NCBI RefSeq assembly: GCF_000429265.1
Contig: NZ_AUBN01000017.1
Location: forward strand, 1 to 64,000
Direction: 5' to 3'
Origin: Actinomyces gerencseriae DSM 6844
GTDB taxonomy: Bacteria > Actinomycetota > Actinomycetes > Actinomycetales > Actinomycetaceae
Length of the DNA stretch: 64,000 nucleotides
Below are positions 2,371 through 22,912 of the stretch, in pieces. The translations under genes and the position numbers were made by a program. The notes under the pieces were generated by a model, which searched no databases, was not told the DNA's origin, and was given only the letters and a program-made list of their open reading frames with translations. Numbering within the stretch: position 1 is the stretch's first letter; each line of letters begins with the position of its first letter.

Positions 2371-2907
2371 TCACGACTCCCCAGCCACGACGCCGAGCGG
2401 CCCGCCCTCCGGGAACAGCCGCCTCTCCAGGCGCGGCCTCAGACGGTAGATGAGATCGAAGTTGGCGGAGATCACCAGGGACAGCCCGACCGCCCACGCG
2501 ATCGCCTCCCACGCCCTGCCGCCGGACGCCAGCGCCCAGATCGCGTACCCGTACCACGGGAGGGTGAGCGCCGCCGTCAGGGCGCTCGGCGTCCGCATCC
2601 TCAGGCGGAGCGCCTCCAGCACGTGCCCCAGCAGGTGGAGCGCGTAGGGGATGAGGAAGCCGGCGATCAGGGGGAGATACCCCGTCACGACACTCACCAG
2701 CGCGATCAGCGAGAACAGGACGAACTCCTCGAAGATCATGGCGGCCAACGTCGGCGTGCTGAATGATCGGAATCCCCAGAACGCCTGCCTGCGCGCACGC
2801 GGGTCGTCCCGGAATCTCGACAGCCACGGTCGGATGAAGATGATCTCCTCGAACTCGTGGACCATGAACAGGACGACGCTCAGCCACACGATCGTGTCGC
2901 GGCTCAT
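2371..2907 (-). CDS. HXXEE-domain small membrane protein
   Basis: About 178 residues, with several hydrophobic stretches predicted to cross the membrane. The family motif is visible near the N terminus as HEFEE (HxxEE). A second acidic pair, IFEEF, follows, and a later histidine sits in YALHLLGH. These spaced His/Glu residues within membrane helices are what define the HXXEE family, whose function is unknown but might include metal binding or an enzymatic role. ATG 2907 is chosen; a GTG at 2910 precedes it directly. It is the last gene of the large biosynthetic run, 46 bp after the acyltransferase gene, so it may be a pathway accessory or a neighbour at the border. Confidence 0.75.
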   Translation of the reverse strand: MSRDTIVWLSVVLFMVHEFEEIIFIRPWLSRFRDDPRARRQAFWGFRSFSTPTLAAMIFEEFVLFSLIALVSVVTGYLPLIAGFLIPYALHLLGHVLEALRLRMRTPSALTAALTLPWYGYAIWALASGGRAWEAIAWAVGLSLVISANFDLIYRLRPRLERRLFPEGGPLGVVAGES

Positions 2908-2953
2908 CACGTCCGCCTCCCCTCGGACCCCACCATCGTGGCGGATGCGCCCA

Positions 2954-3892
2954 TCAGAGATCGCTCATCAGAGCCGCCGTGCTCGCGGCCGAGTCGGTCG
3001 ATCCGATGTCGACCGAGGCACCGAGCTCCCGCCGCGCGAGGGAGGACAGCACACGCCCCGGACCGCACTCGACGTGCGTCCGGACCCCGTCCCGGCGGAG
3101 CTCCTGCAGGGTCTCGCGCCAACGGACTCGCCCCGTCATCTGCTGCACGAGCAGGCCCCCGATGGCCTCCGCCCCGCCGACGGGTCGGGCGGTCACGTTG
3201 GCGATGACCGGGATGACCGGGTCCCTGAACCCGGTCCGCCCGATGACCTCGGCAAGCCCCTCGCCCGCCCGCGACATGAGCGAGCTGTGGAACGGCCCGC
3301 CGACGGCGAGATCGACGCAGCGCGCCCCCTCTCCCCTCACGCGCGCCCTGGCCCGGTCCAGGCCCTCGGCGCTTCCCGACAGCACCACCTGGCCGCCGCC
3401 GTTGTCGTTGGCGACCTCGACCAGCGCCCCCTGCGACTGCAGATCCGCGCACATCCGGTCGACCTCCTCGATGGTCGGACCGATGACGGCGATCATCCCC
3501 GCGTCGGCGGGCACCCCCGTCTCCATCAGACGGCCCCGCTCGGCGACCAGACGCAGGGCGTCGTCGAAGTCGAGGGCCTCGGCGGCCACCAGGGCGCTGT
3601 ACTCGCCGAGGCTGTGCCCGGCGACGAACGAGGGACGCAGGCCCGATCGGTGCAGCAGCCGCCACGTGATCACGCTGACGGTGAAGACCGCGGGCTGCGT
3701 CACCGAGGTCCGGCGCAGGTCGGACGCGCTGCCCTCGGAGCACATGCGCGCCACGTCCCAGCCCAGGATGGCACTGGCGCGGTCCATCCACCGCGCGCAC
3801 AGGTCGGGGGCCCGCTCGACCAGGTGCTCCGCCATGCCCGGCTTCTGGCTCCCCTGCCCGGGGAACACGACGGCGACGGGTTCGTTCAGCAC
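2954..3892 (-). CDS. Discrete malonyl-CoA:ACP transacylase (trans-acting AT)
   Basis: A 312-residue stand-alone acyltransferase of the FabD family, which moves malonyl units from CoA to carrier proteins. Visible motifs are FPGQGSQ at residue 10, the nucleophile in GHSLGEYSA (Ser94) and the catalytic His in PFHSSLM (His202). The GTG start at 3892 has a very good AAGGAGG ribosome site seven bases upstream and overlaps the preceding membrane gene. The cluster's KS-ACP-TE protein and its free ACP have no AT of their own, so this protein is the obvious malonyl donor for both the type II system and the ketide extension on the KS-ACP-TE protein. Whether it prefers malonyl over other extenders cannot be decided safely by eye. 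Confidence 0.92.
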   Translation of the reverse strand: MLNEPVAVVFPGQGSQKPGMAEHLVERAPDLCARWMDRASAILGWDVARMCSEGSASDLRRTSVTQPAVFTVSVITWRLLHRSGLRPSFVAGHSLGEYSALVAAEALDFDDALRLVAERGRLMETGVPADAGMIAVIGPTIEEVDRMCADLQSQGALVEVANDNGGGQVVLSGSAEGLDRARARVRGEGARCVDLAVGGPFHSSLMSRAGEGLAEVIGRTGFRDPVIPVIANVTARPVGGAEAIGGLLVQQMTGRVRWRETLQELRRDGVRTHVECGPGRVLSSLARRELGASVDIGSTDSAASTAALMSDL

Positions 3893-4407
3893 GACGCTGC
3901 CTCCTTGTTCATCGTTCTCGTCGTTGACGTTGTTCTGAGGTATCCGAGGATCCCCACGCCCCACAGCGCGAACAGGAGGTCCCAGATCCCCAGGTGCCCC
4001 CAGAGCGCCGTGAGATCCGCGGGCGACTGCTGCGCCCCGCTCATCGCCCCGATCAGCCCGACGGCGCTCGCCGCCATCGAGACGACGCCGTAGACGGCGA
4101 GGCAGACGCCAGCGACGAGCTCGCCGCCTCGGATGAGCGCCCGGAAGGCGCCGTCGGACGACCGCAGGGCGGCATCGACCAGGGGGACGGCCGTCACGCC
4201 CGCCTTCGCCGCGGCGATGACGCCGAGTAGGAGGGCCCGCCTGGACGGCCCGAGCGCGGAGATCTCCCGGGCGACCTGCCCCACCGTGGACAGCAGCAGT
4301 CCGCTGCCCGCCGCCCAGATCGCCGAGAAAAGTGCGTGCACGGCTCCCGAGAGAGTCGCCAGCATGAGCCATGGGAGCGCTCTCCTCCCACTCCCGGAGC
4401 CGGTCAT
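3886..4407 (-). CDS. Small integral membrane protein, function unknown
   Basis: A 173-residue protein with about four hydrophobic segments (starting near PWLMLATLSGAVHALFSAIW and ending near LLFALWGVGILGYL). The general look resembles DUF3995-type four-helix membrane proteins, but I cannot confirm that family. ATG 4407 overlaps the stop of the upstream FolD-like gene as ATGA, and its own 3' end overlaps the acyltransferase start, so it is translated within the operon. A role in export, self-protection or anchoring of the pathway is possible but is inference from position only. Confidence 0.65.
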   Translation of the reverse strand: MTGSGSGRRALPWLMLATLSGAVHALFSAIWAAGSGLLLSTVGQVAREISALGPSRRALLLGVIAAAKAGVTAVPLVDAALRSSDGAFRALIRGGELVAGVCLAVYGVVSMAASAVGLIGAMSGAQQSPADLTALWGHLGIWDLLFALWGVGILGYLRTTSTTRTMNKEAASC

Positions 4408-5339
4408 CCCCGATCCCGCCCCGATGCCACCGCGGCGAGCACCGCGTTGCGGGCGAGGCCGGCCAGCAGCAGAGGACCGCAGCCCCTGGGGGCGGGGCAG
4501 TACAACGAGGCCACGTTCTCCGCGGCCTCGGGGCGAACGGCGCCCTGGTAGACCGGCCGCCTGGTGCCGTCCTTCTCCTCGTGGACGGCGACCAGCGATG
4601 CGCTGAAGTCGACGACGACGGCTCCGGGCTTCACGCACCCCGAGGTGATCACCCCGGGGTTCTGCTCCGCGGCCACGAGCAGGACGTCGGCGGCGCGGCA
4701 GGCCTGAGGCAGAACCTCGCTGTCACTGGGGATGAAGCGGATATCCGCGTCCCGCGGCCACACCTGACCGGGCCCCACGTGGGCCAGCACCTTCGTGATC
4801 AGGTTGCGCCTCATGGCCGGGCGGTCGACGACGATGACCCACTGGGCGTCGGGCTCGACGGGGGCCGGGGCGGCGGCGATCACGGTCCTGATCACGTCGA
4901 TGATGATGAGCGGGAGCCGGGGCTCGTCCGGGCTCCCCGGGAGGTAGGCGGAGATGTTGTCCCAGCGCATCCCCTCGATCTCCTTGGCGGGCTCGATCGT
5001 ATTGATCGCGACCGCCATGTCGATCGTGTCGGGCGCGGGAAGCAGGATCGTGACGCCGTGGAACGACTCGTCCTCGCACGCCCGGACGATCTCGCCGGTC
5101 AGCACGTCCTGCTCAGTGCTCGCGGGGAGCATCGTCGTGTCCGCCTCGATGCCGCAGTCGGCGAAGAACTTCCGATGCAGCGCCAGCACGGAGGACGCCT
5201 GCACCTCCTGCAGCATCGTCGCCTGCTCGAACGCGATCAGCCGGACCCGAGGCGGCCGCGCGAGCCCCTCCCGCAGGACGCGCACCTCCTCCAGGGTTCT
5301 GAGGCGTTCCGCTGCCGGGTTGAAGATCAAGGTTTCCAT
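4404..5339 (-). CDS. Divergent FolD (methylenetetrahydrofolate dehydrogenase/cyclohydrolase) paralogue
   Basis: A 311-residue protein with the overall FolD layout. An N-terminal catalytic domain contains the LLPAP stretch (canonical QLPLP). It is followed by a Rossmann-like domain and a C-terminal CPAPRGCGPLL resembling the PCTPxG motif. The catalytic pair of E. coli FolD, Tyr50 and Lys54, aligns to Val51 and His55 here, while the following Arg-Lys is kept. The NADP-binding and DVGxxR-type signatures are also degraded. A normal dehydrogenase/cyclohydrolase activity is therefore doubtful. It may bind a folate-like or other ligand, or do new chemistry in the pathway. ATG 5339 is five bases after the KS-ACP-TE stop and is the start that gives the family N terminus. 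Confidence 0.7.
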   Translation of the reverse strand: METLIFNPAAERLRTLEEVRVLREGLARPPRVRLIAFEQATMLQEVQASSVLALHRKFFADCGIEADTTMLPASTEQDVLTGEIVRACEDESFHGVTILLPAPDTIDMAVAINTIEPAKEIEGMRWDNISAYLPGSPDEPRLPLIIIDVIRTVIAAAPAPVEPDAQWVIVVDRPAMRRNLITKVLAHVGPGQVWPRDADIRFIPSDSEVLPQACRAADVLLVAAEQNPGVITSGCVKPGAVVVDFSASLVAVHEEKDGTRRPVYQGAVRPEAAENVASLYCPAPRGCGPLLLAGLARNAVLAAVASGRDRG

Positions 5340-5344
5340 GGTTC

Positions 5345-7783
5345 TCAAAGACTCCCGTTGTCGTGTTCGTCGTATGCGGACAGGATCTCGGCGAGGATGA
5401 CGCCGACGCGGTCGATCGATGCCCGGTCGGAGAGCATCGAGTAGTGGTCGCAGGGGACGGTCGAGACCGTCACGCCCCCGGCGCACCACCGCTCCCAGCG
5501 CACGGCCGGCTCCGGGGAGATCCCCAGGGACTCGAGCACCGGTGAGACGGCCTCCGCGGCGATCACCGAGACCGGCGTCGCGATGGTCGCGGACGGCCGG
5601 TACCCGTAGAGGCACGACGTCGTCACCCGCCAGATGTCCGTCATCGCGGACTCGGCGTCGACGGCCGTCGGCTCCTGTCCGTCCATGACCGCCCGGCCGG
5701 CCCTCAGAAGGGTCTCCTCCGGGGGAGGGGAGTCCGGGTAGGACTCCGGCGTCATGGCATCGAGCATGATCACCTTCAGCGTCCTCCTCGCCAGGGGCTC
5801 CGAGACCGCCACCATCTCGTGGGCCAGATTTCCCCCCAGCGAGAATCCGCCGAGGACGATGTCGCCCGATGCCCGCCCGAAGCGCTCCATGACCAGCCGC
5901 GAGTAGTGCACGGCCAGGTCGTTGACGGACGGCGGCCCGGAGACCCCCGGCGCGATGAACGGCACGGCCGCCACGGTCCAGTCTCCCGGGACGCTGCCGA
6001 GCAGGACGCGGTAGCGCGAGACCGTCCCGCCGGCCGGGTGGACCAGGACGAGGACGGGGCTGCCCGCGCGCCCCGCCCGCAGTTCCACGAGTCGCGAGGA
6101 GTCGTCGCCCGGGACGTCCAGGGCCCCCAGCAGCCCGGCCGGCGTCGGCGCCGCCTCGAAATCGTTGATCGTGAAGGAGGAGGCGCCCCAGCGCCTGCGG
6201 ACCTGCTCCACGAGCTCAACAGCGCCCAGCGAGTCCCCGCCGGCGTCGAAGAAGTCGGTGTCCGCCGACACCGGCGGGTCCACGAACTCCGCGAACAGCG
6301 AGATCACGTCCTCCGACGACGGCCGGCCCCGCCGCGGGGGAGTCGGGTGCTGCGAAGGGGTCGGGCCCGAGGGCCCCGCGCCGGGCCGGTTCTCGGACCC
6401 GCCCCATATGAGAACGGGCATCTCACGACGGTCCGGCCCGGGCACCGGCGCGCGGTCCCGCGTCCTGCCGGTCCACGGCCCGACGACGGCGTGGACATTG
6501 GTCCCGCCGATGCCGAACGCGCTGACCCCGGCGTACGGCCGGTCCTCGGGCCACGGGGCCCGCTCCGCGCCGATGACCAGCGAGGTGCGCTCGATCCCGA
6601 GCTCGGGATTCGGCCGTTCGAAGCGAATCTGCGGGGGGATCTCCCCGCGCTGCCGCATCAGGGCGACCTTGATCAACGACGCGATGCCCGCCGCCACGTC
6701 GAGGTGGCCGACGTTGGCCTTGAGCGACCCCAGTCTCACGGGCGCGCCGGAGGCGCTGGGGGCCAGCACCTGGCTCAGGCCGCGGACCTCGATGGGATCG
6801 CCCAGAGGGGTTCCCGTGCCGTGCGCCTCGACGTAGCCGACTCGTCCGTCCAGGGTCCCGGCGCGCTCGTGCGCGGCGCGGATGACCTCGGCCTGCCCGG
6901 AGGGGCTGGGAGCCGTGTACCCGGCACGACGGCTCCCGTCATTGTTCGCCGCCACCGACTCGATGGCGGCGTAGGCGGGGACGCCGCGCTCGCGGGCATC
7001 GTCTCCGAGCATGAGCACGACCGCACCCGCCCCGTCCCCTCTGACCGTCCCGTCGGCCGCCGCGTCGAACGGCCGGCAGCATCCGGTCGGGGACAGGATT
7101 CCCCCCTCCTGGTACAGGTATCCCCTCGCGCGCGGGTAGGCGATGCTCACCCCGCCCACCACGGCCACCGTGCACTCGCCGCCGAGCAGGGACATCGTCG
7201 CGGTGTGCATCGCCAGGAGCGAGCTCGAGCAGGCGCTCTGGACGACGGCCGCCGGGCCCGTGAACCCCATCAGGTAGGCGATCCGGGAGGCCACGAAGTC
7301 CTTGTCATTGCCGAGGAGGAGGCTGTACTCCGGCGGGCGCTCCCCCTCGGGCAGGGCCAGCAGGTGATGAGCCATGTAGGAGCTGAGCGCCGCACTGGCG
7401 AACACCCCGACGGTCTCGTCGGCCAGGGACTCGCCGACGTCCTCGACGGCCGTTCTCACCACGTCGAGGAGCACCCGGTGCTGGGGATCCATCACCGCCG
7501 CCTCCCTGCGGGTCAAGCCGTAGGCGCTCGCGTCGAAGGACAGCGAGTCCTCCATCGAGCACGAGACCGGGACGAAGCCGGGCCGCTCGGCCTGCGGAGC
7601 CCGCCCGGGCCGCACGGGCTGCCCGGGCTCCGCTCCCGCCGATGCGCCCGCCGAGCGCGGCGGGCCGCCGTCGTCCCGGTGCAGGAGGCAGCGGCCGTCG
7701 AGGAGCGACTCGTAGAAGGCCGCGGCGTCGGCCGCCGGGCCGAACCGGCCCGCCAGTCCCACAATGGCGATGTCATCACTCAT
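5345..7783 (-). CDS. KS-ACP-TE polyketide synthase, AT-less
   Basis: An 812-residue modular protein. A ketosynthase occupies about residues 1-435, with nucleophile Cys185 in SACSSSLLA and catalytic His321 (EAHGTGTPLGDP) and His360 (NVGHLDVAAG). A carrier domain carries the phosphopantetheine serine in FFDAGGDSLGAVEL (Ser518). A C-terminal thioesterase has the nucleophile elbow GGFSLGG (Ser648) and a late His in CDHYSML. No AT, KR or DH domain is present, so malonyl must come from the discrete AT at 2954-3892. It directly follows the C-A-PCP synthetase with an 8-bp overlap. The KS-T-TE layout after a C-A-T protein is the one known from reutericyclin-type tetramic acid synthetases. The TE may hydrolyse or cyclise the product. 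Confidence 0.92.
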   Translation of the reverse strand: MSDDIAIVGLAGRFGPAADAAAFYESLLDGRCLLHRDDGGPPRSAGASAGAEPGQPVRPGRAPQAERPGFVPVSCSMEDSLSFDASAYGLTRREAAVMDPQHRVLLDVVRTAVEDVGESLADETVGVFASAALSSYMAHHLLALPEGERPPEYSLLLGNDKDFVASRIAYLMGFTGPAAVVQSACSSSLLAMHTATMSLLGGECTVAVVGGVSIAYPRARGYLYQEGGILSPTGCCRPFDAAADGTVRGDGAGAVVLMLGDDARERGVPAYAAIESVAANNDGSRRAGYTAPSPSGQAEVIRAAHERAGTLDGRVGYVEAHGTGTPLGDPIEVRGLSQVLAPSASGAPVRLGSLKANVGHLDVAAGIASLIKVALMRQRGEIPPQIRFERPNPELGIERTSLVIGAERAPWPEDRPYAGVSAFGIGGTNVHAVVGPWTGRTRDRAPVPGPDRREMPVLIWGGSENRPGAGPSGPTPSQHPTPPRRGRPSSEDVISLFAEFVDPPVSADTDFFDAGGDSLGAVELVEQVRRRWGASSFTINDFEAAPTPAGLLGALDVPGDDSSRLVELRAGRAGSPVLVLVHPAGGTVSRYRVLLGSVPGDWTVAAVPFIAPGVSGPPSVNDLAVHYSRLVMERFGRASGDIVLGGFSLGGNLAHEMVAVSEPLARRTLKVIMLDAMTPESYPDSPPPEETLLRAGRAVMDGQEPTAVDAESAMTDIWRVTTSCLYGYRPSATIATPVSVIAAEAVSPVLESLGISPEPAVRWERWCAGGVTVSTVPCDHYSMLSDRASIDRVGVILAEILSAYDEHDNGSL

Positions 7784-10700
7784 CGATGTCTCCTCTCGAC
7801 TGGTTGCGACGGCGGCTCAGCCGGCTGCGATCGGGGCGTCCGCCCCGTCGCCGCGGCGAAGGTCCCGCCGTCCCGGCCTCGAGCCTGGCCGCCATCTGAT
7901 CGATCGACGGCGCCTCGAAGACGGTCGTCGTCGTGATGACGGCGTCGGGGAAGAGTCCTGCGAGGCGGTTCGCGAGAACCGGGACCTGCGCCGACGTCCC
8001 CCCGAGATCGAAGAAGCTGAGATCGGGGGAGTCGCTCGCCCCTCCGACGACCGTGTCCCAGGCCCAGGACACCCGCTCCCGGACACCGGCGTCCGCCGGC
8101 GGCTCCTCCCCCACCGGGACGCCGTCATCCGCGGCGGGCGCCGGGAGCATCTCCAGGAGGGCCGCGGAGTCGATCTTGTGGTTCGGGGTGTGCGGCAGGC
8201 GCTCCACGATGATGACGCGGCGCGGCCACATGTACCCGGGGAGCGTCCGCCTGATGACGTCCCACACCGACTGCTCCGACTGCCCCGGGACGAGGACCGC
8301 GAAGGTGTAGAGCGCCACCTCGGCGCCCTCTTCGCGGGGCACGGTCACGCTCGCCCGCACCAGGTTCCCGGTGCCCAGGACGGCGTCGATCTCGGCGGTC
8401 TCCACCCGGTGGCCCCGGACCTGGACCTGGCCGTCCCCGCGCCCGCGGATGTAGATCCGCCCGTCGCGACTCATCGTCACGATGTCGCCGGACCGGTAGA
8501 ACCGTCGCCCGTCGTCATCCGTGACGAAGCGCGACCGGGTCAGCTCCGGCATGCCGACGTAGCCGGGGCTCACGCAGACGCCGCCGATCTGGAGCTCACC
8601 GGGCCTGCCCCAGGGCACGGTCCTGCCTGTCTCGTCGCAGACCCGGACGCACACGTCCTCCATCGCGCGCCCCACCGAGAACGGAGGGGCCTTGGGCACC
8701 TGGTAGATGCCGGCGGTCCGCTCGTGACTGATCCAGATCGCCGTCTCCGCGGGCCCGTAGATGTTGAACAGGGAGGCCTCCTTCGGGGCGAGGCGGTCCC
8801 AGTTCTCGACGATGTCGGACCTCATCGGCTCGCCGCCCACCATCGCCGCCGTGAGCCGGCTCAGGGCCCGCTCCCCGTCCTGCACGGCGAGCAGGTTGCG
8901 CAGGGCGGTCGGGGTCTGGACCATGCACGTCACCGAGTGCTCGATCATGAGCGAGGCGAACCGGGCCGGGTCGCGGCGGACATCGCGCGGAACGACCACC
9001 AGCTCGCTTCCCGTCGAGAGCGACCCCAGGATCTCCAGGACGGACAGATCGAAGGCGTTCGAGTGGAACTGCGGCCACACGCCCGGGGACGCCGCCTCGC
9101 GGGGGAGCTCGTCCGGGAACAGGCGTCCGACCGACCGGTGAGTGGCCATGACCCCCTTCGGCTCCCCGGTGGTGCCGGAGGTGAAGATGATGTACGCGGT
9201 GTCGTCCAGCGCCGGCGGGCCGGGTCGGGCCGCCTCCTCGCCGGTCCCGCGCCGGCGGTCCCCGGGCATCGAGAGCTCCGTCATGCCCGGCGTGATGGTG
9301 AGGGCGCCCGGCAGGCGGAGCGCGCTCACGTCATCGCCGAGAACCGCGAGGATCCTGTCGAGTCGTCGCGCGGGCACGTCCTCGGCGAGGGGGACGGCGA
9401 TCCTCCCGGACATGATGATGCTCAGGAAGGTCACCACGTAGTCGACGGACGGGGCCCCCACGAGGACCGCGTACCGCCCCAGCCCCTCGGCCTCGGCGGC
9501 CGCGGCCACCCGATCGACCTCGTCGATGAGCCCGTCGTAGGTCACGCGCCTGCGCTCGTCCGACAGCGCGGTGCTCGGTCCGAAGCGCCGCGCCGCCTCC
9601 CGCACGATCTCGGGGATCGTGCGCTCGACCGGGACGGCGCTGGGCAGGCGGTGGGACAGCTCGTCCCGGGGAAGGTCCCGCAGACGCGCCTCCGGCTCCT
9701 CCCGCCGGCTCCTCAGCGCGTGCTCGAAGACGGTGCGCAGGATCGCCTCGGGATCCGACTCGGACAGCGCGTCGGCGATGTCGAGCTCGAAGCAGTAGCC
9801 ATCGGCATCCTTGGAGACCGATATCCCCAGCGGGAACTTCACCTGCGACCGCTCCACGACCACGCGCCGGTGCACCAGGGGCCCCGTCCGGAAGACCATC
9901 GGCTCCTGGTAGAAGGTGACCGCCACGTCCGCCGAGGTCGATCCCCGGTAGCCGTCGGGCGCCAGCACGGGCAGGGCGTCCCTCAGGCAGAACGACTCGA
10001 AGCGCGTCGCCCGCCTCACCAGCGCGTGCGTCCGGCGGAACAGCTCGCCCACGCTCCCGCCGTTCAACGGGACCTCCAGCGGGAGCACGTTCACCGTGTT
10101 GCGCACCGATGCATCACCCGGCGCCCGGTTGGAGAAGCTCATCGAGACCACCGGCTCGCCGGCGATCCCCAGGGCGCGCACGGCCTCCGCCACGCAGGCC
10201 AGCACCACCGTCACCGGCGCCACCCGGTGGGTGAACGCGAGGGTGTCGAGCGCCTGGGACCATCTCCGCCCCGGCCTCCACACGGCCACACGGCCCGGCA
10301 GGGGCGCATCGGGCCGCCGGCCCGGCACGAGGCCGTTGTCCAGCCCCTCGCTCCTGTCCCGCACCAGACGGCGGTAGTAGTCCTCGGCTCCCGCCACCCG
10401 GTCCGCCCGGGTCGGGGCCGTCCCGGGCCCCGGAGTCATCCCCGGATCCTCGTAGGCGTCGCCGATGTCCCGCAGTATCCGCGCCATCGCCGTGAAGTCC
10501 ACGATGACGTGGCTGAGCACGAGCCCCAGGTAGGCCCGCTCACCGCAGGTCCACACCCGCGCGCGCACCAGCGGCTCGTCCCCCGCGAGGTTGAAGGGGA
10601 CGTCGGCCAGCGCGCGGATCAGCGAGACCGCCGCATCGTCGTCGAGCGCATCGACGCGCTCCACCCGGCACCCCCGCCCGACGGGGACGACCGCTGCCAC

Positions 10701-13946: not shown

Positions 13947-13952
13947 CGGACA

Positions 13953-14891: not shown

Positions 14892-14907
14892 TCACGCTGC
14901 TCCATGC

Positions 14908-15732
14908 CTATTGACGAACGTCGCCGCCGTGTCTCCCCTGCCGTTCCCCGGGCGCGCCCTCATTCGCCTCACGCGGTTCGAGCGCTCCGGGAACGCCCTC
15001 ACCGATCCGGGTCGTCATCCACTCCTCGACCAGCGCGGCGACTCGTCCCGGGGCACTGACGTGGCAGAAGTGCCCCTGCCCCTCCTGGACCTCCAGGCGC
15101 GAGTGCGCGAGTCGGTCGCACAGCTCGCGGCGCTGGGCATCCGTCGTTCCGGGGTCCAGGTCGCCGCCGACGATGAGCACCGGGATCCTCAGCCGCTCGA
15201 GCGGGGCCGCGGTCGTCCGCTCGACGAAGGCCAGAGAGGCCTCGCGCTCGCCGTCGGGGACCTGCCGGATCAGAACGCGCACCATGGCGTCGGTCGTCTC
15301 CCGGCCCTGATCCGCCCGCAGATCCGCCCGCTCGGTGTGCAGGCGCTCCGCCAGCACCGCGTCGAACCGCCGTCGGTGCTCCCGGCGCTCCGAGGCCCGT
15401 CCCACCTCGGCGCGCCTGACGTAGGTCGGACACACCAGGATCATCCCGATGAGGCCGTCGCAGGGACCGCGCTCCGCGACGTAGCGCAGGCACGCCGAGG
15501 CGCCCAGGGAGTGGGCGATGATCCCGAACGCCCCGCCGCGCCGGGCCGCGCCGCACGCCTCGTCCATGAGCCCGCTCATCGCGGGGAAGTCGAGGCGGGC
15601 GGGCCCGGGACGACTCCACGGAGCCTCCAACGGCGTGATCTCCAGTCCGCTCCGCTCGGCCAGCGGGGACCAGGTCCTGCCGTCGTCGTTGAGACCGTGG
15701 ACCCCGATCAGCGGCGGGTACGCGCCCATCAC
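14908..15732 (-). CDS. Alpha/beta hydrolase
   Basis: A 274-residue alpha/beta hydrolase. It has an oxyanion-loop stretch, IGVHGLNDDGRTW, the nucleophile elbow AHSLGAS, a probable acidic residue in GGDLDPG and the catalytic His in GQGHFCHVS. The triad is therefore complete. It could hydrolyse a thioester or ester intermediate or act as an acyltransferase. The substrate cannot be read from sequence. GTG 15732, followed immediately by ATG 15729, overlaps the stop of the truncated KS-like gene. The downstream 16 bp separate it from the tandem-hotdog gene. Confidence 0.85.
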   Translation of the reverse strand: MMGAYPPLIGVHGLNDDGRTWSPLAERSGLEITPLEAPWSRPGPARLDFPAMSGLMDEACGAARRGGAFGIIAHSLGASACLRYVAERGPCDGLIGMILVCPTYVRRAEVGRASERREHRRRFDAVLAERLHTERADLRADQGRETTDAMVRVLIRQVPDGEREASLAFVERTTAAPLERLRIPVLIVGGDLDPGTTDAQRRELCDRLAHSRLEVQEGQGHFCHVSAPGRVAALVEEWMTTRIGEGVPGALEPREANEGAPGERQGRHGGDVRQ

Positions 15733-16448
15733 ACCAGCAGCCGATCACCGAGATCGGACGACGCCGCGTCGAGCGCGGCCTCGAGCACGTGGCGCGCCCC
15801 GTGGTAGCGCGGGAGGAGCGCGTCGTCGTCGTGCCGCGGCTCCGGCGACGGGGCCGAAGGCGTCCTCCCCCGGCCGAGGAGCACCGCCGCCGCCAGGGGC
15901 CGATCGCTCTCGTCCATCGCGAGGAACGGCGCGGGCACCGCGTCGTCGACGCCGAGGACGACGACACGATCGCATCGTCCGGCGGCGAGCAGCAGGGACG
16001 CGATCTCGAGCGCCTCCGCGCCCGCGCGGCGCCCCGAGCACACGCTCACGTTCGGCCCGCGCCACTCGTGGCGAATGGCCAGGCTGCTCCCGATGATGTT
16101 CGCCGAGTGCGTCGGGGCGTCCACCGGGCTGAGGGCCGCCTCCCCCTCCCAGTAGAGCCTGCTGGCGTCCCTGATGACGACATCGGCATTGCTGAAGTTG
16201 GAGGAGACGACGACGCCCGTCCGACCACCGGGGGGAGCCTCCGCCCCGCGCAGGACCGTGAGCCCGTGAGCGGCGCAGAGCGCCATCCGGGTGGCGCGGT
16301 TCTTCCCGAGAAGACCGCGGCGACCGAGCCAGTCCCTGGCGTTGTCGGGATCCGGCATCGGCGCGCCCGTCGCGGCGTCCGGCGCGCCGGGCTCGTACAC
16401 GAACGCCCCGAGCACTCGCGCCGTCCCCGAACCGGGTGCCCGCCTCAT
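15729..16448 (-). CDS. Truncated ketosynthase-like protein (N-terminal half only)
   Basis: A 239-residue protein resembling only the N-terminal half of a thiolase-fold ketosynthase. It has the elbow-like stretch NVSVCSGRRAGAEALEIA, followed by VVVLGVDDAVP, and then ends. The two catalytic histidine motifs (HGTGT and NVGH-like) are missing, so it cannot be an active condensing enzyme alone. It resembles the short ApeC-type chain-length-factor-like proteins of aryl polyene clusters, where such a protein partners an active KS. Start ATG 16448 overlaps the stop of the active KS at 16445 as ATGA, which supports a stoichiometric pair with that KS. Confidence 0.8.
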   Translation of the reverse strand: MRRAPGSGTARVLGAFVYEPGAPDAATGAPMPDPDNARDWLGRRGLLGKNRATRMALCAAHGLTVLRGAEAPPGGRTGVVVSSNFSNADVVIRDASRLYWEGEAALSPVDAPTHSANIIGSSLAIRHEWRGPNVSVCSGRRAGAEALEIASLLLAAGRCDRVVVLGVDDAVPAPFLAMDESDRPLAAAVLLGRGRTPSAPSPEPRHDDDALLPRYHGARHVLEAALDAASSDLGDRLLV

Positions 16449-17596
16449 GCCGACTCGCCCCTCTCGTCGCCCTCGGGGGAGCGCACGACGCACACCGAGT
16501 TGACGCCCCCGAACCCGAACGCCTCGACCTGCGCGATCACGGCGCCCCCGTCATTCAGCGGGGCCCCGCCGTCCGGCGGGAACCGGAGGCCCGAGGCCTC
16601 GTCCAGGGGATCGCGCAGGCCGACGACCGGCGGGACGAGCCGCCGGCGCATCGCGACCAGCGCCACGATCAGGCTCATGAGCATCGAGGCGCCGGAGGTG
16701 TGCCCCGTCGCCCCCTTGATCGCCGAGACGAGCGGGGAGGCGCCCTCGAAGACCGCGCTCAGCATCCGGGCCTCCGTGGGGTCGTTCAGGCGCGTCCCGG
16801 TCCCGTGCGCCATGACGACGTCGATGTCCGGTGGACGCACCCCCGCCCGCTCGTGGGCCAGCGCGACGCATCGCGCAATGCCCTCGGGCGAGGGGGCGGT
16901 CTCGTGGTACCCGTCGCAGGTGATGGCCGCGCCCAGCAGCTCCGCGCGCGCCGGGCGCCCTCCGGTCCGCCCGCGGGCCTCGAGAAGCACCGCGGCCGCG
17001 CCCTCCCCCAGCAGCACTCCCCGCGACTCGGCGTCGAAGGGGCGGAGCCTGTGGGGGGACTCGCGGTTGACGCGCCCCATCATCCCCAGCATCCCCATCG
17101 CCATGACGTCCGCGCCGGCCACCACGACCCGGGACTCCATGCCACTGTCGATGAGATCCGCGCCCATCGTCAGCGCGGTCCCGGAGGCGGAGCACGCCCC
17201 GGTCAGCACCGTGACGGGCAGGCGGACCTCCTCTCCGGCCCGCGAGCGCACGACTGCTTCCTCGGGGAACGCGGCCACCTGGGTCCTCCCCGACCCGATC
17301 GCCGAGACCTCCGTCAGGCGCTGCTCGTGCATGCCCGTGCCGACGATCACTCGGACGCCCTCGAGGTCCTCGCGCGGCAGGCCCCGGCACACCGACGCCA
17401 GCACGGGCGCGAGCAGGGGCCATGCGCTGTTCCGGGGCTGCTCGCCCACCGGGTAGCCGTAGGACACCGTGCTCTCCCCGGCGGGCTCCCCTCCCAGCCG
17501 ACGCTCGCCCGAGGCGCCCGCGAGGAGCCCGGCGCACGTGCTCTCCGCATCCCCCAGGCAGCTCGTCATCGCCGTGCGCGAGATCACGACCGTCAC
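16445..17596 (-). CDS. Beta-ketoacyl-ACP synthase, type II system (second active KS)
   Basis: A 383-residue condensing enzyme with a complete triad: Cys135 in GACSASGTAL, His264 in AHGTGTRLNDPTEA and His299 in IKGATGHTSG, with Lys294. It should extend ACP-bound chains with malonyl-ACP by decarboxylative Claisen condensation. It lies between the two inactive KS-like partners. The GTG start at 17596 overlaps the preceding stop (GTGA), and its stop overlaps the truncated KS-like gene. The layout resembles KS genes of aryl polyene and other highly reducing type II systems. Confidence 0.92.
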   Translation of the reverse strand: MTVVISRTAMTSCLGDAESTCAGLLAGASGERRLGGEPAGESTVSYGYPVGEQPRNSAWPLLAPVLASVCRGLPREDLEGVRVIVGTGMHEQRLTEVSAIGSGRTQVAAFPEEAVVRSRAGEEVRLPVTVLTGACSASGTALTMGADLIDSGMESRVVVAGADVMAMGMLGMMGRVNRESPHRLRPFDAESRGVLLGEGAAAVLLEARGRTGGRPARAELLGAAITCDGYHETAPSPEGIARCVALAHERAGVRPPDIDVVMAHGTGTRLNDPTEARMLSAVFEGASPLVSAIKGATGHTSGASMLMSLIVALVAMRRRLVPPVVGLRDPLDEASGLRFPPDGGAPLNDGGAVIAQVEAFGFGGVNSVCVVRSPEGDERGESA

Positions 17597-18618
17597 GGCT
17601 CCTCCGTCCCCTCGACCAGCACAGCACCGAACTGGTCGCCGTTGCCCTGACCGACGAGCGCGATCCTCCGGGGCCCCTCACGGGAGGCGAGCATCGCCGC
17701 GGCGACCCCCAGCCCCAGCAGTCCCTGACCCGAGCGGAGGAAGTCCGCCCGCTCCGTCAGGTCGAGCACGGCCGGCACCGTCGCCTCCAGCGCCGACGCC
17801 GCGTCCCGTTCGAGGGGGGCCACGCTGACGGCGAGGTCGACGTCGTCCGCCCCCGCGGCCCTCAGGCACCTCATGACGGCGTCCCGCGAGGACTCGCCCC
17901 GCGCGGCCATCCGCGTCACGACGGCGGAGGAGACGAGGCGAGCACCGGCCGCATCGGGTCGGGCGGTCAGAACCGCCGCCACGCCGCCCTCGATCGCCCG
18001 GGCGGCCGATGCCCGCGAATGGGCGTGAAGGGCCCGGTACTCGTCCGTCATCTCCTCGGCGCCGAACACCATGACGTGGTCGAGGTAGTCCCGCCTGGCC
18101 AGGTTCCGCGCGTAGTGGAGGGCCTGGATGCCCGCGAGGTCGGCGCCGGCGATCGTCGCGTTCGGCCCTCGCAGCCCGAAGCGGATGGCGGCCTGCCCCG
18201 CGGCGCAGTTCATGACCGTGTTCGGGAACAGCATCGCGTTCACCAGGTACGGGCGAGCCTCGACCAGCGTCGCGCGGCTGTAGCCCGTCACGGACTTCAG
18301 ACTCGCGTTGGTCGTCGCCGAGACCACGCCGAATCGATCGGTCGAGCTCTCCGGCGCCGGGAGACCGGCCTGCGTCAGAGCCTCCCCGCAGGCGGCCAGC
18401 GCCAGGCAGGTGACCCGGTCGAGGATCTTGATCCCCTTCCGGCCGAGGCGCTCGACCGGGTCGAAGTCGTGGATCCGGTCCGGCCGGTCGCCGTCCGCGG
18501 GCACCGGCTCCAGGAAGTCGGAGAACCGCGCCCGCCCGGGGAGGACCCCTGAGATCGACAGGACCGTCAGGCCGGCGTCCCCCGTCGTCCCCGATTGCTG
18601 TCTCATCGGCTGTCCCAT
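17593..18618 (-). CDS. Inactive KS-like partner / chain-length-factor-like protein
   Basis: A 341-residue thiolase-fold protein without a condensation triad. The nucleophile elbow aligns as NATIAGADLAGIQAL, with Asp at the cysteine position, and no HGTGT-type histidine motif is seen. Chain length factors of type II PKS carry a Gln there, so the Asp is unusual. The core still has recognisable KS blocks (FGVVSATTNASLKSV, VMNCAAGQAAIRFGLRGPN). ATG 18618 shares its A with the stop of the upstream active KS, which makes a KS/CLF-type heterodimer with that protein likely. It may set chain length or stabilise the active subunit. Confidence 0.85.
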   Translation of the reverse strand: MGQPMRQQSGTTGDAGLTVLSISGVLPGRARFSDFLEPVPADGDRPDRIHDFDPVERLGRKGIKILDRVTCLALAACGEALTQAGLPAPESSTDRFGVVSATTNASLKSVTGYSRATLVEARPYLVNAMLFPNTVMNCAAGQAAIRFGLRGPNATIAGADLAGIQALHYARNLARRDYLDHVMVFGAEEMTDEYRALHAHSRASAARAIEGGVAAVLTARPDAAGARLVSSAVVTRMAARGESSRDAVMRCLRAAGADDVDLAVSVAPLERDAASALEATVPAVLDLTERADFLRSGQGLLGLGVAAAMLASREGPRRIALVGQGNGDQFGAVLVEGTEEP

Positions 18619-19838
18619 CAGGCTCGGTCCTCCTTCCCGAAGATGACGATCGCGTTGTTCCCCCCGAACGCGAATCCGTTGTTCTGCGCGACCCCGATAT
18701 GCGCGGGCCGGCTCGTATTCGGGACCACGTCGAGCCCCGTCAGGCGATGATCGGTCTGCCGGTGGTTGACCGTCGGGGGCAGGAATCCCTCGTGGAGGGC
18801 GAGCACCGACGCGATCGCGCCGAATCCGCTCGCCGCGCCCATGGAATGACCGAGCATCGACTTGATCGAGCTGATCGGCGGCGGGTCGTCCCCGAAGACC
18901 GTCTTCACCGCCATGCCCTCGGTGAGATCGTTCGCGGCGGTGCCCGTCCCGTGGGCGCAGATGTAGTCCACGTCCTCGGCACGGGTCCCGGAATTCTCGA
19001 GCGCGAGCCTCATGCACCGCACGATCCCCTCCCGATTCGGGGACACCATGTGCGAGGCGTCGCACGACAGCGCGTAGCCCCTGACGGTCGCGTAGATCCG
19101 CGCACCGCGCGCGACGGCCTGGGACCGCCGCTCGAGGAACAGCGCCGCTCCCCCCTCGGCCGTCAGGATGCCGCTCCTGTGCTCGTCGAACGGCGAGCAG
19201 ACGTCCTGGGTCATGGCGCCGAGCCGGTAGAAGCCCGCGTGCGCCCACCGGCACACGGAGTCGGCGCCGCCGGCGATGACCGCGTCCGCCTCACCGGACA
19301 TCAGGAGGTCGTAGGCGTACCCCACCGCGTAGTTGCTGGCCGAGCAGGCCGTCGAGACCGTCATCGCCTCGCCCCCGAACCCCAGCTCCGCGTTCACGGC
19401 GTCCGCGAGGCTGGACGGCGCCACCCGGCTGGCGTCGGCGCTGTCCATCGGCGCCTGCGGGTCATCGACCCACGCGGCCACGAGCGCCTCGATCTCCTGC
19501 GACTCGCCGCTGGTCGTTCCGATGACGCTGGAGCAGCGTTCCGGATCGAGCTCCGCCGGACCGCCGGCGTCCTCGAAGGCGAGTCTCGCGGCGGAGGCCG
19601 CCAGCAGGGAGCTGCGGCCCCATTCGGACTCGTCGAGTGCTGTGAGTATCGCGCGCGGATCGAAGTCGACGACCTCGCCCGCATTCACGTACGGAAATCC
19701 CGTGGTGTCGAAGCTCCGGATCGGTCCCGTGCCGACCCGTCCCTCCTCGATCCCCCGCCTGAAGGCGTCTCGTCCGATACCGATGCTGGAGACGGGGCCC
19801 AGCCCGGAGACGACTACCGAGTCGTTCAACATGGTCAC
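18618..19838 (-). CDS. Beta-ketoacyl-ACP synthase, type II system (first active KS)
   Basis: A 406-residue KS of the FabF/type II PKS kind. The triad is Cys165 (STACSASNYA), His296 (CAHGTGTAANDLTE) and His331 (MLGHSMGAAS), with Lys326. It follows the ACP gene by 15 bp and is coupled to the inactive KS-like partner by a start/stop overlap, so it probably works as a heterodimer on the free ACP. GTG 19838 and ATG 19832 are both possible starts. Together with the ketoreductase and the dehydratases it would elongate a chain that keeps its double bonds, because no enoyl reductase gene is in the cluster. Confidence 0.93.
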   Translation of the reverse strand: MTMLNDSVVVSGLGPVSSIGIGRDAFRRGIEEGRVGTGPIRSFDTTGFPYVNAGEVVDFDPRAILTALDESEWGRSSLLAASAARLAFEDAGGPAELDPERCSSVIGTTSGESQEIEALVAAWVDDPQAPMDSADASRVAPSSLADAVNAELGFGGEAMTVSTACSASNYAVGYAYDLLMSGEADAVIAGGADSVCRWAHAGFYRLGAMTQDVCSPFDEHRSGILTAEGGAALFLERRSQAVARGARIYATVRGYALSCDASHMVSPNREGIVRCMRLALENSGTRAEDVDYICAHGTGTAANDLTEGMAVKTVFGDDPPPISSIKSMLGHSMGAASGFGAIASVLALHEGFLPPTVNHRQTDHRLTGLDVVPNTSRPAHIGVAQNNGFAFGGNNAIVIFGKEDRA

Positions 19839-19853
19839 GTGGTCACGCCGGGG

Positions 19854-20099
19854 CTAGGCCTTCGCGTGCTCCTGGACGATCGCCCGCACGGACTCCAGAT
19901 TGACCATTCTCGACAATTCATCCTGCGGGATCTCGACGTCGAACGTCTTCTCGATCCTCGCGAGGATCTCGATCGCCCGCAGGGAGTCGGCCCCGTGCTC
20001 CTCCGCGAACAGGGAGGTATCGGTGATCTCCTCGGGCTCGATCTCGAGCACGTCGGCGATGAGCTCCCGCAGCTGGTCGTCGAGGTTGTTGTCACTCAT
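19854..20099 (-). CDS. Acyl carrier protein (type II)
   Basis: An 81-residue acidic four-helix carrier protein. The phosphopantetheine attachment serine is Ser39 in HGADSLRAIEIL. It carries the growing chain between the discrete KS, KR and DH enzymes. Start ATG 20099 overlaps the dehydratase stop by 8 bp. Activation needs a phosphopantetheinyl transferase; an Sfp-type one is encoded at 49066-49722. Confidence 0.95.
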   Translation of the reverse strand: MSDNNLDDQLRELIADVLEIEPEEITDTSLFAEEHGADSLRAIEILARIEKTFDVEIPQDELSRMVNLESVRAIVQEHAKA

Positions 20100-20601
20100 G
20101 GTGTCTCTCCTTTGTTGTTCTCGTCCGACTGGTGCCGGACTTCTCCGTGTAGAAAATGGTCGCCTGGTCGATCGTGCACAGGACTCGGTCCCCCACTCGG
20201 GCGCTCGCCCTGACGAATGACGCGGGCCCGATCGTCCGCTCGATCGTCGCTCGGCCGATCACCCTGTCCCCCGGGAATGCGTCCCCCAGGAAAATCGCGT
20301 TCTCCGCGCGGGCGAAAAGCGGAGACTGCTCCGTTCTCCCGGCATTCGCGCACGCGCACAGGAGAGCGGCCGTCTGACCGAGGAACTCGGTCATCAGCGT
20401 CCTGGGCCACGGTCCCTCCGTCAGGCCCCACTGGGCGTAGCAGGGCTCGTCCAGCGTCACGTCATGAACGGTTTCTGCACTCGGTCCCGCCCCGTCGTTC
20501 GCGCCATTCCCATCATTCCGGCTATTCACGGACACGTCCCGGACGGCGGATATCAACATCATCGCGCCGCGGTGGGGGATGAATGCGGAGGCATCGGTCA
20601 T
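20092..20601 (-). CDS. Hotdog 3-hydroxyacyl-ACP dehydratase-like protein (ApeP-like)
   Basis: A 169-residue single hotdog protein. Its N terminus, AFIPHRGAMMLISAVRDV, matches the IPHRxPMLLxD start of FabZ/ApeP-like dehydratases, with the candidate catalytic His at residue 10. The body shows FLGQTAALLCACANAG and later IGRATIERTIGPASFVRASARVGD. A stretch of about 25 residues rich in Asn, Gly and Asp follows the first strand and looks like an inserted loop. It would dehydrate 3-hydroxyacyl-ACP, perhaps together with the second hotdog protein next door as a heterodimer. ATG 20601 gives the family N terminus. Confidence 0.85.
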   Translation of the reverse strand: MTDASAFIPHRGAMMLISAVRDVSVNSRNDGNGANDGAGPSAETVHDVTLDEPCYAQWGLTEGPWPRTLMTEFLGQTAALLCACANAGRTEQSPLFARAENAIFLGDAFPGDRVIGRATIERTIGPASFVRASARVGDRVLCTIDQATIFYTEKSGTSRTRTTKERHHE

Positions 20602-20626
20602 GATATCGTCATCTCCTTCAGATCCT

Positions 20627-21055
20627 TCAGGCGTCGGGAGCGAGCCGGAGGGCCATCTCCGCGAGCACGCGCCCGCGCTCGTCGCGGCACGAGGCCGACA
20701 CGCGCCGGGTCCCAGGCCCCCCGCCGGGATCCTCCAGTCGCGCAACAACCGTGAATGACTCCCCGGGCGTTCCGGGGGAGACGAATCGAACATTCTCCAC
20801 ACGGCTGAGCGACACGGCCCCAGGCTCGATCCCGCGCAACCGGACATAGGCGCGCGAGGCATTGACGACGCTCTCGATGAAGAACACCCCCGGATAGATC
20901 GGCATATCCGGGTAGTGCCCGTCCTGGTAGGGCGATCGCGACGGCGTCGACTGCCGAGCGGTGAATCCCTCCTCCGTGTGCTCGACGAGCGTCGGCACGG
21001 CCACGGGAGAGGGATGACGGGGAGGCCGAGTCGCGGGAGCGGGGCTCTCGTTCAC
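20627..21055 (-). CDS. FabZ-type 3-hydroxyacyl-ACP dehydratase
   Basis: A 142-residue hotdog protein with the FabZ active-site block GHYPDMPIYPGVFFIES (canonical GHFPGxPxxPGVxxxEA), giving candidate catalytic His47 and Glu61. It should dehydrate 3-hydroxyacyl-ACP to the trans-2-enoyl form. The GTG start at 21055 overlaps the ketoreductase stop as GTGA. With the neighbouring hotdog gene it makes two dehydratase genes in a row, as in aryl polyene clusters, where two such proteins cooperate. Confidence 0.88.
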   Translation of the reverse strand: MNESPAPATRPPRHPSPVAVPTLVEHTEEGFTARQSTPSRSPYQDGHYPDMPIYPGVFFIESVVNASRAYVRLRGIEPGAVSLSRVENVRFVSPGTPGESFTVVARLEDPGGGPGTRRVSASCRDERGRVLAEMALRLAPDA

Positions 21056-21792
21056 AGGACCATCCCGCCGTCGACCCTGAGGACCTGCCCGGTGATGTAC
21101 CCGGCCTCCGGGCTGCACAGGAAGGCGGCCACGGAGGCCACCTCGTCGACGGTGCCGAAGCGTCCGAGCGGGATCGTGGACCGGGCCGTCGTGCGCGCGG
21201 CCTCGGGCAGGTTCGCCGTCATGTCCGTCTCGATGAACCCGGGTGCGATCGCATTGACCCGGACCCCCGACGGCCCGAGCTCCCGCGCCAGCGTTCGCGT
21301 CAGGGTGTTGACTCCCCCCTTCGCCGCGCTGTAGTTCGCCTGCCCCCGATTGCCCGTCACACCGGCGACCGAGGAGATGTTGAGAATCACTCCCCCGCCC
21401 CCGCGCATCATCGGCAGCGCAACGGCGTTGCAGAAGTTGAAGGCGCCGTAGAGGTTGGTCCTCACGACCTCGTCCCACTCCTCGGGCGTCATCAGGGCGA
21501 TCGACCTGTCGCGGACGATGCCCGCGTTATTCACCAGGACGTCCACCGGGCCCAGGCGGTCGACGGCGGTATCGACGAATGCGCGCACCGCCGCATGATC
21601 ACTCACATCGCACGGGGCGTAGAAAGGGCCGTCGTCCGTGGTGGGCCCGTCATAGCTCTCACTGCGCGCGCAGCAGGACACCCGATCACCGAGGGCGGTG
21701 AATGTTTCGACGATTCTCCGACCGATACCACGGCTGGAGCCCGTCACGATAACATGGCGATAGTGCTCGCGGTGCTGCATGGATTGCTTCAC
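21052..21792 (-). CDS. 3-ketoacyl-ACP reductase (FabG-type SDR), first gene of the operon
   Basis: A 246-residue classical short-chain dehydrogenase. The NADPH loop is TGSSRGIGRR, with Asn in NNAG. The catalytic residues are Asn113, a Ser at 140/141 (NISSVAG), Tyr154 and Lys158 (YSAAK). The C-terminal GGMVL ends the family fold. It reduces 3-ketoacyl-ACP made by the discrete KS. The frame opens at GTG 21792 with an internal ATG at 21780; the ribosome site AAGGAA lies just upstream of the first. It is the promoter-proximal gene of the long overlapping run. Confidence 0.94.
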   Translation of the reverse strand: MKQSMQHREHYRHVIVTGSSRGIGRRIVETFTALGDRVSCCARSESYDGPTTDDGPFYAPCDVSDHAAVRAFVDTAVDRLGPVDVLVNNAGIVRDRSIALMTPEEWDEVVRTNLYGAFNFCNAVALPMMRGGGGVILNISSVAGVTGNRGQANYSAAKGGVNTLTRTLARELGPSGVRVNAIAPGFIETDMTANLPEAARTTARSTIPLGRFGTVDEVASVAAFLCSPEAGYITGQVLRVDGGMVL

Positions 21793-22868: not shown

Positions 22869-22878
22869 GGCCACCAAG

Positions 22879-22912
22879 TATGTCGCACATGCGCCGCACG
22901 TATGTCGCGCAT
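22879..22912. promoter_or_regulatory. Candidate LysR operator: two dyad 12-mers 22 bp apart
   Basis: TATGTCGCACAT (22879-22890) and TATGTCGCGCAT (22901-22912) are direct repeats, each containing an ATG/CAT dyad, placed 22 bp apart (two helical turns) between the LysR gene and the divergent dehydratase. Position and symmetry fit a binding site for the regulator. Confidence 0.55.

Follow-up and report, generated by a model that had tools for sequence, protein, structure and literature searches.

Layout and gene content of the operon

We analysed a 64,000-nucleotide stretch of Actinomyces gerencseriae DSM 6844 (contig NZ_AUBN01000017.1, positions 1 to 64,000; hereafter the window), with a focus on a compact operon that combines discrete type II polyketide synthase (PKS) enzymes with a non-ribosomal peptide synthetase (NRPS). 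The operon consists of 19 minus-strand genes between positions 2371 and 21792, all free of internal stops, and is located on contig C14 of the 3.42-Mb genome (28 contigs; the G+C content of the window is 72%). Given the chosen start codons, 12 of the 18 gene junctions overlap by 1-8 bases and the other six are gaps of 5, 6, 15, 16, 25 and 46 bases. An initial annotation, made on the same DNA, had described about 19 mostly overlapping genes on one strand, which agrees with this count.

Transcription runs from a ketoreductase (KR) through two dehydratases (DH1 and DH2), an acyl carrier protein (ACP), two ketosynthases (KS) each followed by a partner of the KS-beta or chain-length-factor (CLF) type (KS1-CLF1-KS2-CLF2), an alpha/beta hydrolase (ABH) and a double-hotdog protein (HOT2) to a DsbA-fold protein. 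The last eight genes encode, in this order, a major facilitator superfamily (MFS) exporter, a protein of 186 amino acids, an NRPS with condensation, adenylation and peptidyl carrier protein domains (C-A-PCP), a PKS with KS, ACP and thioesterase domains (KS-ACP-TE), a FolD-like protein, a small membrane protein, a discrete acyltransferase (AT) and an HXXEE protein (Table 1). A Pfam scan of all 19 proteins gives some match for 17; the small membrane protein and the 186-residue protein have none, and DH2, HOT2 and the C domain stay below the curated cut-offs. All discrete enzymes and both modular proteins named in the initial annotation were recovered (the ketosynthase set amounts to two KS and two CLF-like proteins), and its description of a hybrid type II polyene, NRPS and trans-AT system is right: the discrete AT that such a system needs is found at 2954-3892.

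It had also been stated that the operon lacks an enoyl reductase. None was seen among the 19 genes in Pfam and NCBIfam scans, and a zinc-dehydrogenase-family (MDR) gene lies 231 bases downstream. The best Pfam model of the KR (PF13561) is described as an enoyl-ACP reductase, but this is offset by its best NCBIfam model (TIGR01830), a 3-oxoacyl-ACP reductase.

Table 1. Genes of the operon in order of transcription, followed by selected genes around it (L116-L118 are stretches from other genomes, see text).
Feature	Position	Strand	Evidence
KR, FabG-type ketoreductase	21052..21792	-	PF13561/PF00106; TIGR01830 274.2 bits (cut-off 297.75)
DH1, FabZ/FabA-type hotdog dehydratase	20627..21055	-	PF07977; motif HYPDMPIYPG
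DH2, FabZ-like second dehydratase subunit	20092..20601	-	weak PF07977; position of DH2 in L116/L117
Acyl carrier protein	19854..20099	-	PF00550 E 2.1e-15; GADS
KS1, ketosynthase alpha	18618..19838	-	Cys-His-His kept; best PDB match 6kxd_A E 5.6e-110
CLF1, KS-beta-like partner	17593..18618	-	Cys replaced by Asp; best PDB match 6kxd_B E 1.2e-19
KS2, second ketosynthase	16445..17596	-	Cys-His-His kept; best PDB match 6kxd_A E 5.8e-35
CLF2, short KS-beta-like partner	15729..16448	-	Cys replaced by Arg; best PDB match 6kxd_B E 9.1e-8
Alpha/beta hydrolase (ABH)	14908..15732	-	PF12697; same place in L116-L118, also in Streptomyces clusters
Double-hotdog 4HBT_2-like protein (HOT2)	13953..14891	-	PF13279, under cut-off
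DsbA-fold protein, 2-hydroxychromene-2-carboxylate isomerase class	13287..13946	-	PF01323; 2imd E 1.7e-7
MFS exporter, DHA2/EmrB-like	11467..13290	-	PF07690 E 4e-47; TIGR00711 201.2 bits (cut-off 230.2)
Small protein, 186 aa	10910..11470	-	no Pfam match
NRPS C-A-PCP, stand-alone	7776..10913	-	PF00668, PF00501, PF13193, PF00550
PKS KS-ACP-TE without AT	5345..7783	-	PF00109/02801/16197, PF00550, PF00975
FolD-like protein	4404..5339	-	PF00763/PF02882
Small membrane protein, four hydrophobic segments	3886..4407	-	hydropathy; no Pfam match
Discrete acyltransferase (trans-AT)	2954-3892	-	PF00698 E 3.7e-36; GHSLG
HXXEE membrane protein (MucF family)	2371..2907	-	PF13787 E 7.7e-19; motif HEFEE
LysR-family regulator	21915..22934	-	PF00126/PF03466; 122 bases upstream of KR
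Zinc-dehydrogenase-family (MDR) gene	1174-2139	-	231 bases downstream of operon
PptT/Npt-like phosphopantetheinyl transferase	49066..49734	-	NF050105 179.3 bits (cut-off 365); PF01648

The polyene half and its cassette in other genomes

The first part of the operon very probably belongs to the highly reducing type II PKS kind, that of ishigamide and the cinnamoyl-lipid pathways. The chains of 6kxd, and not FabF, are the top PDB match for all four KS/CLF-type proteins (for CLF2 narrowly, 35.3 bits for 6kxd_B against 34.0), and the second-best match of KS1 and CLF1 is the pair 9s5h_B/C. We take 6kxd to be the ishigamide Iga11-Iga12 complex. The entry is called a typical KS-CLF complex in PMC10698177, and the Iga11-Iga12 complex is described in PMC8358021, in a part of the text that does not give the code 6kxd (here and below, the cited articles are represented by excerpts). 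Active-site calls for the four proteins were taken from an alignment with homologues from the cassettes described below. DH2 matches the fabZ model NF000582 at E 2e-7 when a shorter reading of the gene is used, which is under the cut-off, and does not contain the dehydratase motif pattern that was searched. The best NCBIfam match of KS2 is AmcF, at 169.6 bits. The cispentacin KS-CYF pair AmcF-AmcG was considered for KS2/CLF2 and rejected on account of this score, which is far below the cut-off of 325 bits, and of the cassette gene order; in contrast to that system, no aminotransferase is found among the 19 proteins with Pfam.

The DsbA-fold protein has a single PDB match at E 0.01, namely the 2-hydroxychromene-2-carboxylate isomerase 2imd. 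Five cassette homologues align with the operon's protein at 37-47% (one annotated as that isomerase, two as DsbA family). Because of this match and these alignments the protein is predicted from sequence to be a polyene cis-trans isomerase. The initial annotation had called it DsbA/FrnE-like; the fold stands, whereas an FrnE-like oxidase role was dropped, the PDB match and the homologues pointing to the isomerase class, and a protein of that class is expected in pathways of the highly reducing type II kind. For the cinnamoyl group of the related peptides, KS-alpha/KS-beta, KR, DH and isomerase are named as the producing enzymes, and some polyene clusters hold more than one KS pair (PMC6510318). 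Chain elongation that depends on the isomerase, with two or three KS/CLF pairs, is reported in PMC9381841, where YsfG is a glutathione-dependent cis-trans isomerase; the operon's DsbA-fold protein would share the fold of YsfG. According to PMC9321520 the isomerase sets the cis bond, after which a second KS/CLF elongates the chain further.

The structure model of HOT2 is of low confidence (mean pLDDT, the predicted local distance difference test, of 59.7) and resembles FatA-type thioesterases, with template-modelling (TM) scores for the FatA-like matches among the 50 listed of at most 0.49 when normalised to the query and at most 0.57 when normalised to the target. As a hint from this model, HOT2 is possibly an acyl-ACP thioesterase.

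The first 11 genes (KR-DH-DH-ACP-KS-CLF-KS-CLF-ABH-HOT2-DsbA) recur elsewhere and are referred to as the cassette. HOT2 occurs in four of 246 genomes of the class, including the genome under study, and in all three others it is found inside the cassette. A distantly related actinobacterial genome (L116) has all 11 genes in identical order and on one strand, as does L117, in order but with DH2 and ACP separated by an additional KS/CLF-like pair; L118, interrupted by contig ends, retains 7 of the 11 in order. KS1 is 60% identical to KS1 of both L116 and L117, against 28% for a KS elsewhere in its own genome (L002). In L117 the cassette is followed by MFS and AT genes, the AT being 46% identical to that of the operon; the contig of L117 stops right behind this AT and covers nothing further downstream. 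For the operon's adenylation domain, a 27% match is present in L116. In none of the L116-L118 stretches is there a best match for the FolD-like, membrane, 186-residue, KS-ACP-TE or HXXEE protein (E limit 1e-3).

Further related gene sets were found with a tblastn search of plasmids, in which HOT2 retrieved seven Streptomyces records; for four of these (NBC_00503, NBC_01431, NBC_00048 and NBC_01244; L122-L125) the gene neighbourhoods were examined. The four regions are cinnamoyl-type type II PKS clusters on large linear plasmids. In NBC_00503, NBC_01431 and NBC_00048 the cassette gene types appear in another order and adjoin NRPS genes, while in NBC_01244 a fatty acyl-AMP ligase takes the place of the NRPS. 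With blastp, 10, 10 and 11 of the 11 cassette types are matched in L122, L123 and L125, respectively, DH2 being the type that is missed. Two of the four regions (NBC_00503 and NBC_00048) carry three small proteins between HOT2 and CLF, and two of the three in NBC_00503 match DsrE/DsrH weakly. This trio, which we guess may be the cyclising Kcn17-19, has no significant match in the window, nor any at E 0.01 in L073 or L116-L121.

These regions bear on an alternative in which the acyl group is an ortho-substituted cinnamoyl, formed through a cis bond, 6-pi electrocyclisation and desaturation (as for skyllamycin-type compounds and youssoufene) and then loaded onto the NRPS. Clusters of the cinnamoyl kind have the same gene types, including an isomerase-class gene and two KS/CLF pairs. 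The DsrE-like trio of NBC_00503 and NBC_00048, however, is unmatched in the window, which leans towards a linear chain, even though the absence is weak evidence because the trio is missing from the other two Streptomyces regions too. Moreover, Pfam reveals no clear desaturase among the 19 proteins. We consider a cinnamoyl group unlikely.

At 1e-10, CLF1 relatives occur in 3 of 197 other genomes of the order; KS1 relatives occur at 1e-60 in 3 of 48 other genomes of the genus (G018, G564 and G031). G018 (L150) and G564 (L148) hold a simpler ACP-KS-CLF-KR-DH-AT cluster, and the stretches compared contain no best match for the second KS/CLF pair, the isomerase or the NRPS; G031 (L119) holds an ACP-KS-CLF-KR-DsbA cluster. 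Large type I PKS clusters, with at least 10 ketosynthase matches each, are present in G031 (C1:2206000-2257000) and on C7 of G004. In Paractinoplanes ovalisporus (L073), ABH, HOT2, CLF, DH, KR and DsbA types are located beside a giant type I PKS gene, which is possibly a further downstream partner for the cassette.

A possible route to an N-polyenoyl tetramic acid

The NRPS and KS-ACP-TE genes are adjacent, back to back, and their products contain the expected active-site motifs (KS Cys/His/His, TE Ser and His, PCP Ser, ACP Ser). The C domain carries His135/Asp139 and has one PDB match, a weak one. An adenylation code of DLLVMGIIWK, read by eye at the presumed code positions, leans towards a small residue such as Gly; it was considered too weak and is not used below. 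In the mutanocyclin (muc) pathway, MucD is a C-A-PCP protein and MucE a KS-ACP-TE protein without AT, which together with a separate malonyl transferase yields an N-acyl tetramate via lactam formation; H135 and D139 are the MucD C-domain residues mutated in that work, MucABC are credited with acetylation and the deacylase MucF cuts off the N-acyl chain (PMC10161427). MucF belongs to the HXXEE proteins and MucI to the DHA2 transporters (PMC9112991).

We read the operon as joining a type II polyene PKS to a C-A-PCP/KS-ACP-TE line that makes an N-polyenoyl tetramic acid, a reading for which we see about equal grounds for belief and for doubt. Gene order, domains, active-site residues, homology and colinearity are observed; from these we infer all reaction steps and the product. 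The discrete AT, which probably serves the AT-less KS-ACP-TE module, would charge both the discrete ACP and the ACP domain of KS-ACP-TE with malonyl. A conjugated chain would be assembled by KS1-CLF1, KR and DH1/DH2, one of its double bonds would be turned cis by the isomerase-class protein, and KS2-CLF2 would extend it. At the C domain the polyenoyl group would pass from the ACP to a single amino acid attached to the PCP. After extension by one malonyl unit at the KS of KS-ACP-TE, the TE would form the lactam and so close the ring, as MucE has been shown to do. C-3 would be left unacylated, because the operon has no MucABC. The exporter would carry the product out of the cell, and the HXXEE protein could remove the N-acyl chain, as MucF does.

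With respect to the last enzymatic step, the product might instead stay open: a polyenoyl-amino acid extended by one malonyl unit could be released through TE hydrolysis as a beta-keto acid, or as an amino ketone amide after decarboxylation. At E 0.001 the TE domain has 12 PDB matches, all of them weak and including ordinary PKS/NRPS thioesterases (for instance Vlm2 and EntF), and no sequence feature proves ring closure. On the other hand, the sole characterised C-A-PCP plus KS-ACP-TE pair that was found makes a tetramate ring (PMC10161427), and the operon ends with an HXXEE gene of the N-acyl tetramate deacylase family. Overall we regard an open chain as rather unlikely. It might also be argued that two independent pathways are merely adjacent, with a polyene acid freed by the hydrolase or HOT2 (both thioesterase-like) and a separate small NRPS-PKS product; L116 has no best match to KS-ACP-TE over the 9.5 kb that follow the cassette. 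Against this, the MFS, 186-residue, NRPS and KS-ACP-TE genes run on from the cassette with overlaps of 4-8 bases, and both halves are interleaved in one operon, as the AT lies after the NRPS/KS-ACP-TE pair. Two separate pathways are therefore very unlikely.

Several observations weigh against the proposed tetramate route. The C domain scores 28.8 bits with PF00668, below the cut-off of 30.6. MucE takes only D-configured substrate and self-epimerisation is proposed for MucD, for which the available text names no epimerisation domain (PMC10161427); no such domain was seen in the operon with Pfam either. Compared to muc, the operon lacks the MucABC genes for C-3 acetylation (Pfam of the 19 proteins only), and its KS-ACP-TE gene measures 2.4 kb, against 3.2 kb for mucE (PMC10161427). 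The link to MucD and MucE is one of domain order and gene company. Within the genus, 36 of the 49 genomes carry HXXEE-family genes, and the strain's own genome has them at five places, so that the HXXEE gene could be a bystander given how common the family is; it is also set off from the operon by the largest gap (46 bases). Finally, the FolD-like, small membrane and 186-residue proteins have no place in the route.

The five places of the HXXEE family in the genome are on C13, C7, C12 and C14, with a closely spaced pair on C7. The frequency of the family in the genus weakens the HXXEE gene as strong proof of a muc cluster. In one Lactiplantibacillus HXXEE region, examined out of 27 matching records, the incomplete gene table lists no NRPS or PKS gene, and most type II muc-like biosynthetic gene clusters (BGCs) are reported to be without mucF (PMC10161427).

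To place the KS-ACP-TE protein, we searched for relatives and obtained 4,629 matches at E 0.001 among 7,993 candidates scored. Among the 120 matches listed, 14 cover at least 98% of the query and the other 106 cover 44-58%. The 14 comprise the window's own protein, one at 88%, one at 50% and 11 at 33-36% identity; where named, they carry names from Arthrobacter, Leucobacter and Klugiella. All matches from 58 related genomes lie within the first 476 of 812 residues, and six of the genomes reach 1e-40 in the KS region. A search of 296 other genomes of the order with the Leucobacter protein gave no match at 1e-110, a limit at which more distant relatives could be missed because the window's own protein barely passes it (9.8e-113). 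In the plasmid tblastn no place covers 80% of KS-ACP-TE, and the KS-ACP-TE and NRPS queries reveal no relative of the operon among the best 25 of 750 and 667 records, respectively. A scan of genome contigs (best 80 of 405 relatives) gave matches nearly all confined to the KS part and yielded L073.

Regarding the proteins outside the route, a second and better FolD is encoded elsewhere in the genome (C2), so the operon copy is a true paralogue, as initially claimed. In the alignment of the FolD-like protein, Leu, Arg, Leu and Glu occupy the positions of Tyr, Lys, Gln and Asp, which we take to be the catalytic residues of FolD, and the nucleotide motif is altered; an active dehydrogenase/cyclohydrolase is consequently doubted. 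Relatives of the FolD-like protein were found in 0 of 245 other genomes of the class at 1e-35. The structure model of the 186-residue protein is unusable (mean pLDDT of 34.3).

Upstream of the KR, the LysR-family gene is possibly the pathway regulator. Divergent from it, an open frame on the plus strand (22915-24447) encodes a threonine-dehydratase-like pyridoxal phosphate (PLP) domain; as this domain starts only some 100 residues into the frame, the true start of the frame is unsure. The operon's strand also carries a second biosynthetic cluster (24921-49750). It encodes two large NRPSs, one of which includes methyltransferase, TubC docking and thioesterase domains, together with an O-methyltransferase, further methyltransferase proteins, a 2,3-dihydroxybenzoate-AMP-ligase-like enzyme, a PptT-like phosphopantetheinyl transferase and two ABC exporter-type subunits. 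The cluster has the look of a pathway for an aryl-capped siderophore in the style of yersiniabactin or pyochelin. The Pfam scans show no phosphopantetheinyl transferase in the operon; the one in the neighbouring cluster, at one of three PF01648 places in the genome, could activate the operon's carrier proteins.

Comparison with known systems

The likeness to the highly reducing type II PKS systems (ishigamide, youssoufene (ysf), globisporamic acid (gla), skyllamycin, WS9326A, kitacinnamycin and epoxinnamide) includes the discrete ACP, the KR, two DH, two KS/CLF pairs and the isomerase-class gene. The ishigamide, youssoufene and cinnamoyl clusters were matched by description, gene types and 6kxd. 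The Streptomyces cinnamoyl-type clusters share the hydrolase and double-hotdog genes as well. The cinnamoyl peptide clusters differ in that they have a multimodular NRPS, where the operon has one C-A-PCP module plus KS-ACP-TE; furthermore, the operon lacks the DsrE-like trio and adds the FolD-like and HXXEE genes.

Aryl polyene clusters (ApeO-ApeC) are similar in the use of type II KS-CLF, KR and DH that iterate to a polyene. An aryl polyene cluster was nonetheless rejected, as KS1 scores 371.4 bits with 6kxd_A against 163.2 bits with 7f27_A, which we take to be the Acinetobacter aryl polyene KS, and an aryl starter gene is absent. Pfam reveals no lyase, aryl ligase or aryl starter gene among the 19 proteins, in line with the initial annotation, and such an absence is expected for the highly reducing type II PKS kind. 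The pks and fun clusters of Limosilactobacillus reuteri have type II KS and KR and no enoyl reductase, and for fun a conjugation with an amino acid by the aminotransferase-like FunC is predicted (PMC6498181). They differ from the operon by having FunC rather than an NRPS, and by the absence of KS-ACP-TE from the gene tables of that article. Epifadin, from Staphylococcus epidermidis, is another peptide-polyene compound (PMC11310079). For Actinomyces, type II PKS and aryl polyene BGCs have been reported and few clusters characterised (PMC8549736).

In the literature searched (titles and abstract openings of the records listed, with few subscription journals), no type II polyene PKS was found that supplies a C-A-PCP/KS-ACP-TE line. 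Each half of the operon is of a described biosynthetic kind and their combination is new; the initial suggestion that no described cluster has this gene set holds for the union at most. A more far-reaching picture, which taken as a whole we hold tentatively and find somewhat harder to believe than to doubt, is that a Muc-type, lactam-forming line acquired a mobile polyene cassette and that the operon would thereby make the first tetramates of N-polyenoyl or N-cinnamoyl type whose chain is built to order by a type II PKS of the same operon; the HXXEE protein, as a dedicated deacylase, would switch between an acylated, antibiotic-like form and the free tetramate, and the FolD relative, without folate chemistry, would be a tailoring or scaffold protein.

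The muc and rtc clusters (mutanocyclin, Streptococcus mutans; reutericyclin, L. reuteri) resemble the operon in their C-A-PCP and AT-less KS-ACP-TE proteins and in the accompanying HXXEE gene and DHA2-type exporter, a tie that we interpret as likeness of plan, not as proven membership. Lactam closure by KS-ACP-TE is demonstrated for MucE only, within the literature examined and as far as its excerpts go, and the operon offers a compact 19-kb system for asking whether such proteins generally close tetramate rings in this way. If our reading is true, the type II polyene cassette would be a portable acyl-donor module able to supply both large peptide synthetases and a minimal NRPS-PKS. In contrast to muc/rtc, where the N-acyl group is proposed to come from decenoyl-CoA, the operon has a discrete AT of its own and would make its own acyl donor; the identity of the acyl chain would therefore be gene-encoded and testable.

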